From positions 1-44,217 of the forward strand of contig PLED01000036.1 in assembly GCA_003136355.1 (NCBI GenBank): 44,217 nucleotides of DNA, read 5' to 3'. The position numbers and the translations under genes were made by a program. This DNA is from Vulcanimicrobiota bacterium (GTDB lineage Bacteria; Vulcanimicrobiota; Vulcanimicrobiia; Vulcanimicrobiales; Vulcanimicrobiaceae). Below the pieces are notes generated by a model. It was not told the origin of the DNA. It did no database searches and worked only from the letters and a program-made list of their open reading frames with translations. Positions 23,635 through 29,097 of this stretch are shown here, piece after piece. Numbering within the stretch: the first letter of the stretch is position 1; every line of letters starts with the position of its first letter.

Positions 23635-25589
23635 TTCGGTTCCGTCGTAAATTCGGCAGCGAAGACGAGATGGGCCGCTACGTTTCGGCGCTCTATGACG
23701 TGCTCGCCAACACGATCGGTTCGGATAAGCTCGTCCTTCGCGCCGGCAAGATGAACGCGCTCAAAATGATGCGCTCGGGTGCGCTTCCCGACCGGCTTTG
23801 CGCGTTGCAGCGCCTCGTCTTCGAAGATCCGACGATCGAACGCGTTACGGGGCGGGCCGGCTTCCGGCGGGTCTTGGGCGAAATCGAGGAGCAGCTGGCC
23901 GATCTGATCGCGCAGAAAAACGTCGAAGATTCCATCGAGCGCAAGATCAACACAAAGATGATCGAGCGCCACCAAGATTATCTTAAAGATTTGAAGCTCG
24001 AGGCGCTGCGCGAAGATTCGGGTCCCGAAACTCCGGCGACGCAGAAGAAACTCCAAGAATTGCAGCAACTCAACGATCGAGGTTTGGCGGCTTCGGCGCT
24101 GCAATTGTTGCGTCCGCAGTCGTTTAAGGAGATCGTCGGGCAAGAGGCCGCGATCCGTTCGCTGCTGGCCAAAATTTCGTCGCCCTACCCGCAGCATGTG
24201 ATTCTGTACGGTCCGCCCGGGGTCGGCAAGACGACCGTGGCACGGCTGGCGCTCGAGGTTGCCAAGGCGCGCGCGTACACGCCGTTTGCCAAGGACGCCC
24301 CCTTTATCGAAGCCAGCGGCACGACGTTGCGCTGGGACCCTCGCGAAACGACCAATCCGCTGCTGGGAAGCGTCCACGATCCGATTTACCAGGGCAGCCG
24401 CCGCGAGTTCGCCGACAGCGGCATTCCCGAACCCAAACTCGGCATGGTGACCCGCGCGCACGGCGGGGTGCTCTTCATCGACGAGATCGGCGAGATGGAC
24501 GCGCTGCTTCAAACGAAGCTGCTCAAAGTGCTCGAGGACAAACGAGTCACGTTCGAATCTTCCTATTATGACGAGAGCTCGGCAAACGTGCCGGAGTACA
24601 TCAAACGCCTCTTCCGGGAAGGCGCGCCGGCCGATTTCATTCTGATCGGCGCGACGACGCGCGAGCCCGAAGACATCGATCCCGCGATTCGCTCTCGCGC
24701 GGCCGCCGTCTACTTCGAGCCGCTGACGCAGTCGCAGATCGTCTCCATCGTCGGCGCCGCCGTCAAGCGGCTAGGCGCCAAAGCCGAGCGGCGCGTGGCG
24801 CAACTCATCGCTTCATACACGATCGAAGGCCGGCAAGCGGTGCAAATCGTGGCCGACGCTTTCGGCGAAGCACTCTATCGGGCAAAAGCCCCCGCCAAGA
24901 CCGCCAAGCCGGGCCGCGCCGAGAACGTCATGATTACCGAAGAGCACGTGCGCAACGTGGTCCAGGCCGGGCGGCTGGTGCCGCATACCTTGGTGCGCGG
25001 ACGCGCGGCTCGCGAAATCGGAAAGACGTTCGGTTTGGGCGTGCTGCACTATTTGGGCAGCATCATCGAGATCGAAGCGGTCGCATTCAACGCCGGCGGG
25101 CCCGGAAAAGGCTCGGTCCGCTTCAACGATGCGGCCGGCAAGATGGCCAAAGACAGCGTCTTTAACGCGGCTGCCGTTTTGCGCGCGGTCACGGGACTCG
25201 ATACCGCGAACTACGATCTGCACATCAACGTGATCGGCGGCGGAAATATCGACGGTCCGTCGGCGGGCCTCGCAATTTTTCTCGCACTTTACTCAGCGTT
25301 AAGCAAGACGCCCGTACCTCAAGACGTCGCGATGACGGGCGAACTCTCGATTCAAGGCAAAGTACGGCCGGTCGGCGGCGTCGTCGAGAAATTGTACGCC
25401 GCACGGCAGGCAGGCATGCGCGCGATTCTCGTGCCACGAGAAAACGTGCGCGAAATCGATCGGACGCTGGCGGGAATCGAAGTGATTCCGGTCGCCTCGA
25501 TCGAGCAGGCATTTAAAGCTTTAGCTCTCCACAAGAAATCCACAAGGCGAGCGCTTCCGGGGCGGCGGAGTATGTCTGCCCGCTCATGA
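23631..25589 (+). CDS. lonC: Lon-family ATP-dependent protease (LonC type)
   Basis: 652 aa. The N-terminal 150 residues are a LonC-type helical region, with no LAN substrate domain of classical Lon. AAA+ domain: Walker A GPPGVGKT (194-201), Walker B GGVLFIDEIGEM (about 278-289), sensor motif ILIGATTREPEDID. Protease domain: VIGGGNIDGPSAGLA with catalytic Ser544, and VRPVGGVVEKLYAARQAG with Lys587, an intact Ser-Lys dyad. Some LonC enzymes have lost ATPase motifs; these motifs are intact. It sits between rplI and dnaB with ATGA overlaps on both sides, so its dose may be tied to ribosome and replisome expression. Confidence 0.92.
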   Translation: MIRFRRKFGSEDEMGRYVSALYDVLANTIGSDKLVLRAGKMNALKMMRSGALPDRLCALQRLVFEDPTIERVTGRAGFRRVLGEIEEQLADLIAQKNVEDSIERKINTKMIERHQDYLKDLKLEALREDSGPETPATQKKLQELQQLNDRGLAASALQLLRPQSFKEIVGQEAAIRSLLAKISSPYPQHVILYGPPGVGKTTVARLALEVAKARAYTPFAKDAPFIEASGTTLRWDPRETTNPLLGSVHDPIYQGSRREFADSGIPEPKLGMVTRAHGGVLFIDEIGEMDALLQTKLLKVLEDKRVTFESSYYDESSANVPEYIKRLFREGAPADFILIGATTREPEDIDPAIRSRAAAVYFEPLTQSQIVSIVGAAVKRLGAKAERRVAQLIASYTIEGRQAVQIVADAFGEALYRAKAPAKTAKPGRAENVMITEEHVRNVVQAGRLVPHTLVRGRAAREIGKTFGLGVLHYLGSIIEIEAVAFNAGGPGKGSVRFNDAAGKMAKDSVFNAAAVLRAVTGLDTANYDLHINVIGGGNIDGPSAGLAIFLALYSALSKTPVPQDVAMTGELSIQGKVRPVGGVVEKLYAARQAGMRAILVPRENVREIDRTLAGIEVIPVASIEQAFKALALHKKSTRRALPGRRSMSARS

Positions 25590-26950
25590 CCATAACGAAT
25601 CTGCCCGTCATCGATCGCATACCGCCGCAAAATCTCGAAGCGGAGATGGCGCTGCTGGGTTCGATTCTGGTCGACCGCGAGATCATGGGAGCGGCGGGCG
25701 AAATCGTGCGGCCGGAAGATTTCTACGCGCACGTTCACGCGACGATCTATTCCGTGCTGTTGCATTTGTACGATCGCGCCGAACCGCTCGACAAGATTAC
25801 GATCGCCGAAGAGCTCAAGCGCCGCGACCAGCTTGAAAAGGTCGGCGGCATCTCCTATCTTTCGGCGCTCATGGACACGGTGCAAACCGCAGCGTCGGCG
25901 ACGTATTACGCGAAGATCGTGCGCGAAAAAGCGGTGCTGCGCGGATTGATCCATGCGGGTACGCAGATCACCCAATATGGCTACGAAAATGAAGAAGACG
26001 TCGAGGGCGCGCTGGACCGCAGCGAGCAGATGGTCTTTGAAATCGGCCGGCGGCAGCTCCACCGCGATTTCGTGCCGGTGGGTCAGCTCCTCAAGCCGGC
26101 CTTCGAAAACATCGACAAGCTCTTTCACAGTCGAGGCGGCCTCACCGGGCTAACCTCCGGCTTCCGGGACGTCGACGACATGACTACCGGCTTCCAGCCC
26201 GGGAATTTCATCATTCTGGCGGCGCGGCCGGGCATGGGCAAGACGTCATTTGCGCTCAACATGGCTGTCGCGGCGGCGCGCGTGGAGACCGAGCCCGTAG
26301 CGTTCTTTTCGCTGGAAATGTCCAACGACGAAATCGTGCAGCGCTTGATCTGCGCTGAAGCGCACATCAGCATGCACGACATGCGCCGCGGAAACATCAA
26401 GCCGCATCACTGGGAGAAAATCTCCGATGCGATGGGCGTGCTCAACGAACTGCCGATCTATCTTGACGACTCCGGCGCGATTTCGATCGCCGAGATTCGC
26501 AGCCGTTGCCGCCGCCTGCAGTCGGGCGCCGGCCTATCGGCCGTCTTCATCGACTACTTGCAGTTGGTTCGGCCAAACGTCTTGAGCCGCAACTCCAACC
26601 GCAACGAAGAACTCTCCGACATCTGCCGCACGTTAAAAACGACCGCCAAAGATCTCGCCGTACCCGTCATCGCGCTCGCGCAACTCAACCGCGGCGTCGA
26701 AACGCGCTCTGAAAAACGTCCGATGCTGGCAGATTTACGGGACTCGGGTAGCTTGGAACAAGAATCTGATATCGTCGCGTTTCTCTATCGCGAAGGCTAT
26801 TACAAAGAAGAAACGCCCGAGCCCGATCTTACGGAATTCATCATCGCCAAACACCGCAACGGTCCGACCGGTACCGTGAAGCTTCGCTTCCAGCGCGAGT
26901 ACACGCTCTTCTTACCGTACGGGGACGAGTCGCACTTCCCAGCGGCCTAG
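25586..26950 (+). CDS. dnaB: Replicative DNA helicase DnaB
   Basis: 454 aa. N-terminal helical domain RIPPQNLEAEMALLGSIL; the RecA-like domain has Walker A LAARPGMGKTSFALNMA, then FFSLEMSNDEIVQRL, then Walker B VFIDYLQLV. The DnaB signature LAQLNRGVETR and DLRDSGSLEQESD follows. It unwinds DNA ahead of the replication fork as a hexamer. No intein is present. It overlaps lonC by ATGA. Its stop is followed at once by the left inverted-repeat arm. Confidence 0.97.
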   Translation: MTITNLPVIDRIPPQNLEAEMALLGSILVDREIMGAAGEIVRPEDFYAHVHATIYSVLLHLYDRAEPLDKITIAEELKRRDQLEKVGGISYLSALMDTVQTAASATYYAKIVREKAVLRGLIHAGTQITQYGYENEEDVEGALDRSEQMVFEIGRRQLHRDFVPVGQLLKPAFENIDKLFHSRGGLTGLTSGFRDVDDMTTGFQPGNFIILAARPGMGKTSFALNMAVAAARVETEPVAFFSLEMSNDEIVQRLICAEAHISMHDMRRGNIKPHHWEKISDAMGVLNELPIYLDDSGAISIAEIRSRCRRLQSGAGLSAVFIDYLQLVRPNVLSRNSNRNEELSDICRTLKTTAKDLAVPVIALAQLNRGVETRSEKRPMLADLRDSGSLEQESDIVAFLYREGYYKEETPEPDLTEFIIAKHRNGPTGTVKLRFQREYTLFLPYGDESHFPAA

Positions 26951-26951
26951 C

Positions 26952-27012
26952 CCAAATGGTGTCATCCTGAGCGTAGCATTTCGCCTTTAGCGAAATGCGA
27001 AGTCGAAGGGCG
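26952..27012 (+). repeat. 61-nt inverted-repeat arm, left
   Basis: Runs from CCAAATGGTGTCATCCTGAG to GAAGTCGAAGGGCG and holds the hairpin GCATTTCGC-CTTTA-GCGAAATGC (26976-26998). The reverse complement of 27959-28019 matches it at 57 of 61 bases. It starts one base after the dnaB stop. Part of it encodes the C-terminus and stop of the lipoprotein gene. Confidence 0.85.
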
Positions 27013-27936
27013 CCTGAGCGAGCGTAGCGAGTCGAAGGCCGCGGGCGCGGTAGTATTGCACGGGCAGTAAGTTAATGAGTGAAGGTAAAACGTTGCTGAA
27101 TATCCGGCGCTGTGCGCCGGTATCTGATAGCTCCTTGCCGCGACCGTGACTCTGTCTTCAAGCGGCATCTCAATTGGCACCTCATCCCAAAAACCGCCAG
27201 CTCGTCCATAATCCACCCATGTAGTTCCCAAATCGGTTGAGTACTTCTGGGCGTGTTCTCCCATCCAGCGAACTAGCGCAAGCGAATTTTTCCCGTAAGG
27301 CATGACATCGTCGGAGCAGGGTCCGCGCGTGACCTTTTTTGTGGCAAGACGGTAAAATACGACCCTTGCCGGAGTCGCGAGAGTGTCGTTCGCGCATTCT
27401 GAAACCGCGCATCCTGAAGCCGGGCATTCCGGCTCGTCCTCGATCAAGATTGCCGCAGTTTCATCTCCCGAAAAAGCAAATGTTCCATCGAACCTATCGT
27501 TGACAATCGGCAAATCTATTTTGCGGGCCCGACGCTTTGCGAGGTCTACGAGGAATGCGACGGGTTTGTGCATGGTATCACCGTCGGCGCACAACAGAAA
27601 TCGTCCGCTGCCGGAGAGCGCTACAGTCGGTCGGCCCGCGCGACACGGGGCGGGAGGGCGGAATTGGCGTCCTCGTATCGACCATGCCGCCTGTGCTCGT
27701 CCGTCACTCGTATAGGCTATATGCAGCAGTGCTGCCGGATTTTCTCTTGCCACATACCAAGAGCCCGGCAAAAGGTGCTCACCTTTGCGAGTAATTGCGA
27801 CAGTGCTCGGACGAGTCGGCGTGAAGTCGGTGGCTGCGAGAATCACGTATGCGATGCCATCGTGCATCTTCGCGGGAGCTTGAGGCGCGCACGCCGATAG
27901 AAACGCGGCGAGTCCAAAAAAGAGAGCTATCCTCAT
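26962..27936 (-). CDS. Lipoprotein of unknown function, boxed by inverted repeats
   Basis: 324 aa. The ATG at 27936 gives MRIALFFGLAAFLSACAPQ with lipobox LSAC; a longer frame to 27984 reads through the repeat and is rejected. The mature part is beta-rich with six cysteines (in PCRAG, FLLCADG, PECPAS, GCAVSECAND, GPCSDD), likely disulfides, and looks like an exported propeller-like domain. No family is recognised. The last 30 or so residues (AAFDSLRSLRRP, then HFAKGEMLRSG) are translated from the left repeat arm, so the original C-terminus may be lost. It points opposite to dnaB. Confidence 0.68.
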   Translation of the reverse strand: MRIALFFGLAAFLSACAPQAPAKMHDGIAYVILAATDFTPTRPSTVAITRKGEHLLPGSWYVARENPAALLHIAYTSDGRAQAAWSIRGRQFRPPAPCRAGRPTVALSGSGRFLLCADGDTMHKPVAFLVDLAKRRARKIDLPIVNDRFDGTFAFSGDETAAILIEDEPECPASGCAVSECANDTLATPARVVFYRLATKKVTRGPCSDDVMPYGKNSLALVRWMGEHAQKYSTDLGTTWVDYGRAGGFWDEVPIEMPLEDRVTVAARSYQIPAHSAGYSATFYLHSLTYCPCNTTAPAAFDSLRSLRRPSTSHFAKGEMLRSG

Positions 27937-27958
27937 GCGGGCCTCGACTTCGCTCGGC

Positions 27959-28019
27959 CGCCCTTCGACTTCGCATTTCGCCAAGGGCGAAATACTTCGC
28001 TCAGGATGACACCATTTGG
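27959..28019 (-). repeat. 61-nt inverted-repeat arm, right
   Basis: The reverse complement reads CCAAATGGTGTCATCCTGAG to GAAGTCGAAGGGCG, with 57 of 61 bases equal to the left arm. The hairpin is ATTTCGCC-CTT-GGCGAAAT with an unpaired outer base. It lies just upstream of the lipoprotein gene and so separates it from the kor genes. Confidence 0.85.
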
Positions 28020-28059
28020 AGCGCTATAACGCTTAGCGTTTCGCTCAAGCGCACCGCGT

Positions 28060-29097
28060 TTAGCTGAAAGACTCCATCAGCGACTTCCAGTCATCGCGTG
28101 AGATGCGAAGATCGTCTTCGGCGAGCTGCGCCAGCGGTTTTTTCGGAAGTTTCTCGCGTTCGCACAGATCGCGCGCTTGCGTGTCTACGTAGAGAAGGCC
28201 GGTGACGAGTTCGCCTTTCTCGCGCGCTTGGTTGAGAACGGTGAGTGCGCCGATGCGATTGGCCGGATCGTATTCGACCTCGAGTTTGCGCAGCAAAATG
28301 CGCGAGCCGTCGTCGAACTGTACTTCGGTAACGGTTCCCGGCTCGTAGTCGACGGTGATTTCACGTCCGCCGACGATGTAGTCCGGCGTATGTAAGATCG
28401 CGTGGTGCTCTTTGACGTAGGCGTAGCTTTTCGTCGAGCCTTCGTGATCGTTGAATGTGACGCAGGGGCTAATGATGTCGAGCACGGCGGTGCCGCGGTG
28501 TGAAAACGCGGCCTGCAGCAGCGGAATCAGTTGCTTGCCGTCGCCGGAGAACGAGCGCGCGACGAACGTCGCGCCCAGTTCGATCGCCAGCCCGCAGACA
28601 TCGATCGTTTCGAGCTCGTTGACTTGGCCTTTTTTCAGCACCGAACCGCGGTCGGCGGTTGCCGAGAATTGGCCCTTCGTCAATCCGTAACAGCCGTTGT
28701 CTTCTATGATATACGTGCAGTCGACGTTGCGGCGGATCATGTGGCAGTATTGGCCCAAGCCGATGCTGGCCGTGTCGCCGTCGCCGCTGATCCCGAGCAC
28801 CATCAACTCGCGGTTGGCGATCTTCGCGCCGGTAGCGAGAGAAGGCATGCGCCCGTGCACGCCGTTGAACCCGTGCGCGCGCTCGACGAAATATGCCGGC
28901 GTTTTCGAGGAGCAGCCGATGCCGCTCATTTTGGCGAGTTTGTGCGGCTCCACGCCATACTCGTACAGCGCTTTGATCAGGTGATTAGTGATTGAGTTGT
29001 GGCCGCAGCCGGCGCAGAGCGTGCTGGGCAAACCTTTGTAAACGTCGCGTGTAAGGCCGGCTGAATTGACGTTAGCCGGAGGTGCTCCGCTGGTCAT
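28060..29097 (-). CDS. korB: 2-oxoacid:ferredoxin oxidoreductase, beta subunit
   Basis: 345 aa TPP-binding subunit. TLCAGCGHNSITNHL opens the domain; GIGCSSKTPAYF and HGRMPSLATGAKIAN follow. LGISGDGDTASIGLGQ...with NGCYGLTKGQFSATA is the TPP/Mg2+ site. TAVLDIISPCVTFND closes the core. It oxidatively decarboxylates 2-oxoglutarate (or a related 2-oxoacid) to acyl-CoA, reducing ferredoxin. No ferredoxin domain is fused, so an external carrier is needed. Its ATG overlaps the korA stop (ATGA), so the subunits are coupled. Confidence 0.94.
   Translation of the reverse strand: MTSGAPPANVNSAGLTRDVYKGLPSTLCAGCGHNSITNHLIKALYEYGVEPHKLAKMSGIGCSSKTPAYFVERAHGFNGVHGRMPSLATGAKIANRELMVLGISGDGDTASIGLGQYCHMIRRNVDCTYIIEDNGCYGLTKGQFSATADRGSVLKKGQVNELETIDVCGLAIELGATFVARSFSGDGKQLIPLLQAAFSHRGTAVLDIISPCVTFNDHEGSTKSYAYVKEHHAILHTPDYIVGGREITVDYEPGTVTEVQFDDGSRILLRKLEVEYDPANRIGALTVLNQAREKGELVTGLLYVDTQARDLCEREKLPKKPLAQLAEDDLRISRDDWKSLMESFS

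Follow-up and report, generated by a model that had tools for sequence, protein, structure and literature searches.

The closest described relatives of the repeats studied here are the CGTC-tagged REPs (Di Nocera et al. 2013, PMC3733652). These carry an unpaired 4-nt tag, with TGTC and CCTC variants, and a stem starting with complementary AT; they are 20–40 bp long with a CCA-like tail, and most of their dimers have a spacer of 20–100 bp. They were described as having no dedicated transposase and no link to RAYTs (PMC3733652). Three further systems are relevant. In the RAYT/TnpA-REP REPtrons and REPINs (PMC2817692, PMC3116915, PMC6006769) a nuclease-type gene, a Y1 HUH transposase, is flanked by host-type REPs and there are many non-autonomous copies, while in the IS200/IS605 elements the enzyme acts on single-stranded DNA at the replication fork (PMC6006769). 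MITEs and cargo-bearing non-autonomous transposons have inverted ends around transposase-free DNA, with empty sites in relatives. Finally, stand-alone UPF0213-type GIY-YIG proteins (PDB 1zg2, 1ywl; reviewed in PMC1564403) consist of a single domain.

The window analysed here (44,217 nt, contig PLED01000036.1, from a draft Eremiobacterota genome) contains a pair of inverted repeats at the convergent junction between dnaB (25586–26950, plus strand) and the gene for a 2-oxoacid:acceptor oxidoreductase beta subunit (kor, 28060–29097, minus strand). The two arms (26952–27021, plus strand, and 27950–28019, minus strand) show 91% complementarity across 70 nt and enclose 928 nt. A sequence-only reading of this DNA had described near-identical inverted repeats of 61 nt with the same start, and this is borne out: the outermost 61 nt of the two arms both begin CCAAATGGTGTCATCCTGAG and are identical at 57 positions. 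As it also stated, exactly one gene lies between them, tail-to-tail with dnaB. This is an orphan lipoprotein gene of 324 codons (26962–27936, minus strand), with an ATG at 27936, a stop codon at 26962–26964 and the lipobox LSAC.

The left arm begins 1 nt past the dnaB stop codon, has its TGTC head at 26960–26972 facing dnaB, and codes for the final residues of the lipoprotein (STSHFAKGEMLRSG) and its stop codon. It is extended by a second repeat unit of 26 nt and CTGAGCGAGCGTAGCGAGTCGAAGG type (27013–27038, plus strand), which is also dispersed, with approximately 10 further genomic matches (query positions 62–87). The right arm belongs to the same REP subfamily; its full repeat unit occupies 27937–28019 on the minus strand, with the head facing the kor genes and the tail (GTCGAGGCCCGC) abutting the lipoprotein ATG, so that the unit reaches the start codon at 27937. 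Beyond it, a spacer of 40 bp (28020–28059) leads to the kor stop codon. Hairpins in the arms had been noted from the sequence, and each arm contains one of the form TTTCGC-loop-GCGAAA (TTTCGC-CTTTA-GCGAAA in the left arm); a fold clearly more stable than that of shuffled sequence is seen for the left arm only (z −2.4, compared to −0.4 for the right arm).

The flanks were also compared without presupposing any repeat sequence: the 350 bp upstream of a gene is aligned locally against the reverse-complemented 350 bp downstream of it, with a threshold score of at least 15 (shuffled sequences reached a maximum of 14). The flanks of the lipoprotein gene score 55.0. Among 344 control genes of the same genus only four reach 15, and the highest of these, at 54.5, is itself a REP-boxed GIY-YIG gene. 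Given these controls, we reject a chance pairing of the arms. We also reject a recent inverted duplication of one arm, because the arms match each other (56/62 identical) no better than they match other copies of the family (54–59/62).

Both arms are members of an abundant dispersed REP-like family of this Eremiobacterota genus. The head TGTCATCCTGAGC occurs in the source genome in 80 exact copies, and in 126 with one mismatch, as against 2 for the reversed control. Both arms have the TGTC head, as do 75 listed copies, which were gathered by head sequence and therefore demonstrate abundance rather than an independent consensus. The head is common to all copies and the segment GTCGAAGG to most of them, and the inner stem is exchangeable. 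Pairing of CCT with AGG is maintained by compensating changes (TGTCATCC..GAAGGA vs TGTCATGG..GAACCA), and a second repeat type, TGTCATGGTGAG...GTCGAACCA, shows a paired change that preserves it. The AT positions of the stem are complemented in some members only (GAAGGATGA), and the window arms have no such complement.

The copies are many, dispersed and mainly intergenic, and some form opposite-orientation pairs, as expected of the REP superfamily. The likeness to the CGTC-tagged REPs (PMC3733652) goes further: the family has a 4-nt tag (the TGTC variant) and a hairpin, forms opposite-orientation dimers, lies near the 3′ ends of convergent genes, sometimes codes for protein termini, and has no RAYT link. 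The arms had been described as no known named element, which must now be revised in view of this resemblance to a published class. The family differs from that class in that its units are longer (approximately 60–80 nt, as against 20–40 bp with CCA) and modular, and the window arms lack both the CCA tail and closing AT pairs, and enclose a 0.9-kb gene as their spacer. Because some defining features are missing, we call the window arms REP-like rather than formal members of the class. The source genome (a draft, 97% complete) gave no match to Y1_Tnp (PF01797, the RAYT-type transposase), although control genomes were positive, and we therefore reject RAYTs as the driver of these REPs.

The arrangement of the pairs is not random. 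Within 4 kb, opposite-orientation pairs in six genomes are found heads outward 10 times and heads inward never (two-sided p 0.002), whereas at longer range outward and inward pairs are approximately equal in number. The restriction of this bias to short range implies that closely spaced outward pairs are genuine and not chance neighbours; the repeats are thus not always single and randomly oriented, a prospect that the sequence-only reading had raised against itself. Some outward pairs span 1.5–3.3 kb and enclose conserved genes. The pairs at C19, C32, C38 and G003:C1:537940 were considered as extra cargo boxes and rejected, since conserved genes, uvrC among them, lie within these pairs or overlap them. 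A supposed second boxed gene at contig C61 of the source genome is in fact a plain REP dimer next to rearranged genes.

In sister species the dnaB/kor junction takes several forms. The empty site that the sequence-only reading proposed to look for is present in two of them, G005 (whose dnaB segment is 92% identical) and G001, where 0–4 bp separate the stop codons of dnaB and kor and there is no insert. In G006 and G002 the junction contains a gene-free heads-outward REP pair, with REP types different from those of the window, and in G003 dnaB and kor are not adjacent. The last approximately 20 bp of the window's kor-side spacer resemble, by eye, the remaining spacer of G006 and G002, and the site may therefore be an old REP site since lost by G005. 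As in a transposon or MITE, the structure ends in inverted repeats and relatives have an empty site. Unlike those elements, the ends are free-standing repeats, we identified no transposase with matching ends, and the search for target duplications returned nothing convincing, the only candidate around the arms being AGC/AGC (3 bp), which is within chance.

The lipoprotein gene stands apart from its neighbours. Its GC content by codon position is 0.60/0.53/0.55, as against 0.62/0.40/0.76 for dnaB and 0.60/0.43/0.76 for kor, which suggests a foreign origin. Searches of the other six genomes of the genus gave no match except to the arm-encoded tail, and 103 genomes of the order gave a single weak match (E 4e-4) and no clear relative. 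Among 84,980 species genomes there was no close relative, the matches being essentially to the arm-encoded tail. The gene was thus not constantly present at this locus in repeat-free relatives, which the sequence-only reading had named as evidence against itself; it was absent from the relatives searched. There was no match in IMG/VR, no family in Pfam or NCBIfam and nothing significant in the PDB, and we therefore reject a known family or a phage gene. A single-sequence structure model was unusable (mean pLDDT 32).

Another tight outward pair in the source genome, at contig C66, surrounds a gene for a 96-residue GIY-YIG nuclease, and the same is true of its orthologous locus in G006. When 41 relatives were searched for GIY-YIG genes and the flanks inspected, the small GIY-YIG genes of the genus proved to be of two kinds, of different sequence even within the same genomes: one is boxed by outward TGTC repeats and the other is not. 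The boxed kind is a stand-alone single GIY-YIG domain of UPF0213 type, and a wider search of 149 genomes from the phylum found it in 53. By the flank test, 46 of 52 loci of this subfamily in Eremiobacterota are boxed, compared to 0 of 25 other GIY-YIG genes, one further row among the latter (G014) being the boxed kind entered twice; among the 344 control genes, one of the four reaching the threshold is likewise a GIY-YIG gene. The loci share ancestry, so these counts are not independent events. We conclude that this GIY-YIG subfamily is associated with REP boxes. The arrangement resembles that of the REPtrons, in that a nuclease-type gene is flanked by REPs of the host type and many non-autonomous copies exist, but the gene encodes a GIY-YIG protein and not a Y1 HUH transposase. 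The association is unreported in PMC3733652, and we found no paper linking GIY-YIG to REPs or palindromic repeats in the openly licensed PMC literature.

The association extends beyond the phylum. In plasmid and chromid records of Pseudomonadota, Bacteroidota and Cyanobacteriota, 16 of 19 GIY-YIG loci are boxed; with Bacillota (0/4) included, the figure is 16 of 23, in a sample that is small and contains several records related to each other. Boxes are found in Methylobacterium, Sphingomonas, Rhizobium, Sinorhizobium, Shinella, Neorhizobium, Azospirillum, Novosphingobium, Sphingobium, Aeromonas, Spirosoma (weak) and Planktothrix. In Methylobacterium the repeats face inward, and some alphaproteobacterial arms (CGTCATCCTCGGGCTTGACCCGAGGATCCA) are close to the published CGTC REP form and agree with its short unit and CCA-like tail.

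The window box and the GIY-YIG boxes are built from the same class of repeats. Each window arm shows 93–94% identity to the downstream arm of the G004 GIY-YIG box (93% for the right arm). The site of that box is occupied by the box in G001, G003 and G004, by a gene-free REP dimer in the source genome, G002 and G006, and by a solo REP in G005, and it thus shows the same kinds of polymorphic state as the window site. The box at C66 lies the other way round between its flanks in G006 than in the source genome and G005, and G001–G004 have no GIY-YIG gene at this locus. Several further features were seen at GIY-YIG loci. In G005 (C23, 8105–8320) the gene is interrupted by a stop, and its 3′ end is replaced by a REP encoding STPHFAEGEMLRSG, a near-copy of the window lipoprotein tail. 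A gene for a cytochrome-like lipoprotein (CAACHG motif) beside the GIY-YIG locus is inverted between species (G002:C5:157387–158040, compared to 69926–70363 on C66 of the source genome), and the G002 copy is bounded by outward REPs. In G015 (C1, 68600–69700) tandem repeats at a spacing of approximately 59 bp flank the GIY-YIG gene, 8 of them at one end and 4 at the opposite end.

Our best explanation of the window structure is an outward REP dimer of TGTC/CGTC type whose spacer holds a foreign lipoprotein gene, plausibly as a non-autonomous form of a GIY-YIG/REP system, within a genus that repeatedly gains, swaps and loses REPs at this convergent junction; we regard the case for it as evenly balanced. 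In such a system the GIY-YIG boxes would be the autonomous form. The nuclease would recognise REP hairpins exposed as single strands at the replication fork and cut there, so that REP-bounded DNA might be copied, swapped or inverted, and the window box would be the non-autonomous version holding an unrelated gene. We infer that the lipoprotein gene may have arrived together with the arms and may be mobile, and that the GIY-YIG protein would act on REP hairpins. The two suggestions made from the sequence, a non-autonomous cargo element and a BIME-like pair, can be reconciled as descriptions of a single structure and are partly supported: the arms belong to a dispersed REP-like family, gene-free outward pairs stand at this site in two sisters, and the gene may have moved with the arms.

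The carriage of cargo is less than certain, because the arms are not mutually closest and because a resident gene of G002 lies between outward REPs. REPs can evidently surround genes without carrying them, as with the cytochrome-like lipoprotein and the conserved genes noted above, and the window lipoprotein has been seen in one genome only, which also counts against the explanation, as does the want of a convincing target duplication. A rival explanation is that a gene acquired horizontally by another route later received, by coincidence, two independent REP insertions, one at each end. REPs are frequent between genes and lie at many gene ends, the window arms resemble each other no more than other copies do, and conserved genes are enclosed by some outward pairs at 1.5–3.3 kb. 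We nevertheless consider such a coincidence rather unlikely, since the arms delimit the strain-specific block almost exactly at the left and to within 40 bp at the right, short-range pairs are exclusively outward, and the flank score of 55 is unequalled among controls other than the GIY-YIG gene.

Less probable still is that a resident REP dimer at the dnaB/kor junction served as a landing pad, recombining homologously with an incoming REP-flanked gene with no REP-specific enzyme. The gene-free dimers in sisters and the apparently common spacer remnant fit this, and the inversion of REP-bounded segments between species is as expected of recombination between inverted repeats. Arms of approximately 70 bp are however short for efficient homologous recombination, and the frequent boxing of GIY-YIG genes would be left unexplained. 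An assembly artefact, in which repeats joined unrelated DNA, is suggested by the draft state of the genome (111 contigs, with runs of N inside some repeat hairpins) but is hardly credible, because each arm is distinct from the other copies seen, the junctions are internal to a 68-kb contig, and the sister species show natural variability at the site.

Returning to the GIY-YIG/REP system, we propose more broadly, and tentatively, that this subfamily could be the missing mobilising enzyme of CGTC/TGTC REPs in several phyla, as RAYTs are for GTAG REPs, that its boxes could carry other genes, and that the window lipoprotein box could be one such non-autonomous cargo element. A nuclease consistently boxed across phyla, by differing repeats, is a testable candidate for the enzyme that spreads these REPs. 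If REP pairs do carry unrelated genes, for which the window gives a hint, then REPs would be an entry route for single genes into gene junctions, and not passive intergenic debris. The window box alone is of modest interest; the association of GIY-YIG genes with REPs is the more important result.

The REPs also show a marked strand polarity. Over 85–180 kb nearly all heads lie on one strand (40 of 40 in G000:C87, 58 of 59 in G006:C8) while genes lie on both, and contigs with negative GC skew have the heads in the opposite orientation. With replication direction deduced from GC skew only, this points to insertion linked to replication or to a polar function of the chromosome, and it would suit an enzyme acting on single-stranded fork DNA. 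An integron-like array in C87, considered on account of the uniform repeat orientation, was rejected because the repeats lie between ordinary genes on both strands. An integron gene cassette had also come into question because repeat tails frequently adjoin start codons; the genes on either side of the repeats are ordinary conserved ones. Contig C87 of the source genome is syntenic with C8 of G006, and many intergenic sites have REPs in both species; at these common sites the REP type (CCT/AGG or GGT/ACC) and number differ, and thus sites persist while sequences turn over.

Finally, the repeat tail often ends at or near a start codon (27937 in the window; L057, L058, L112, L116 and L118), and several genes whose 5′ leader is a REP tail carry signal peptides. 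In G003:C1 (L198, 4406–6487) a REP lies in frame within uvrC, where it codes for NGVILSGAQNARPVEGRPSEAEGR.
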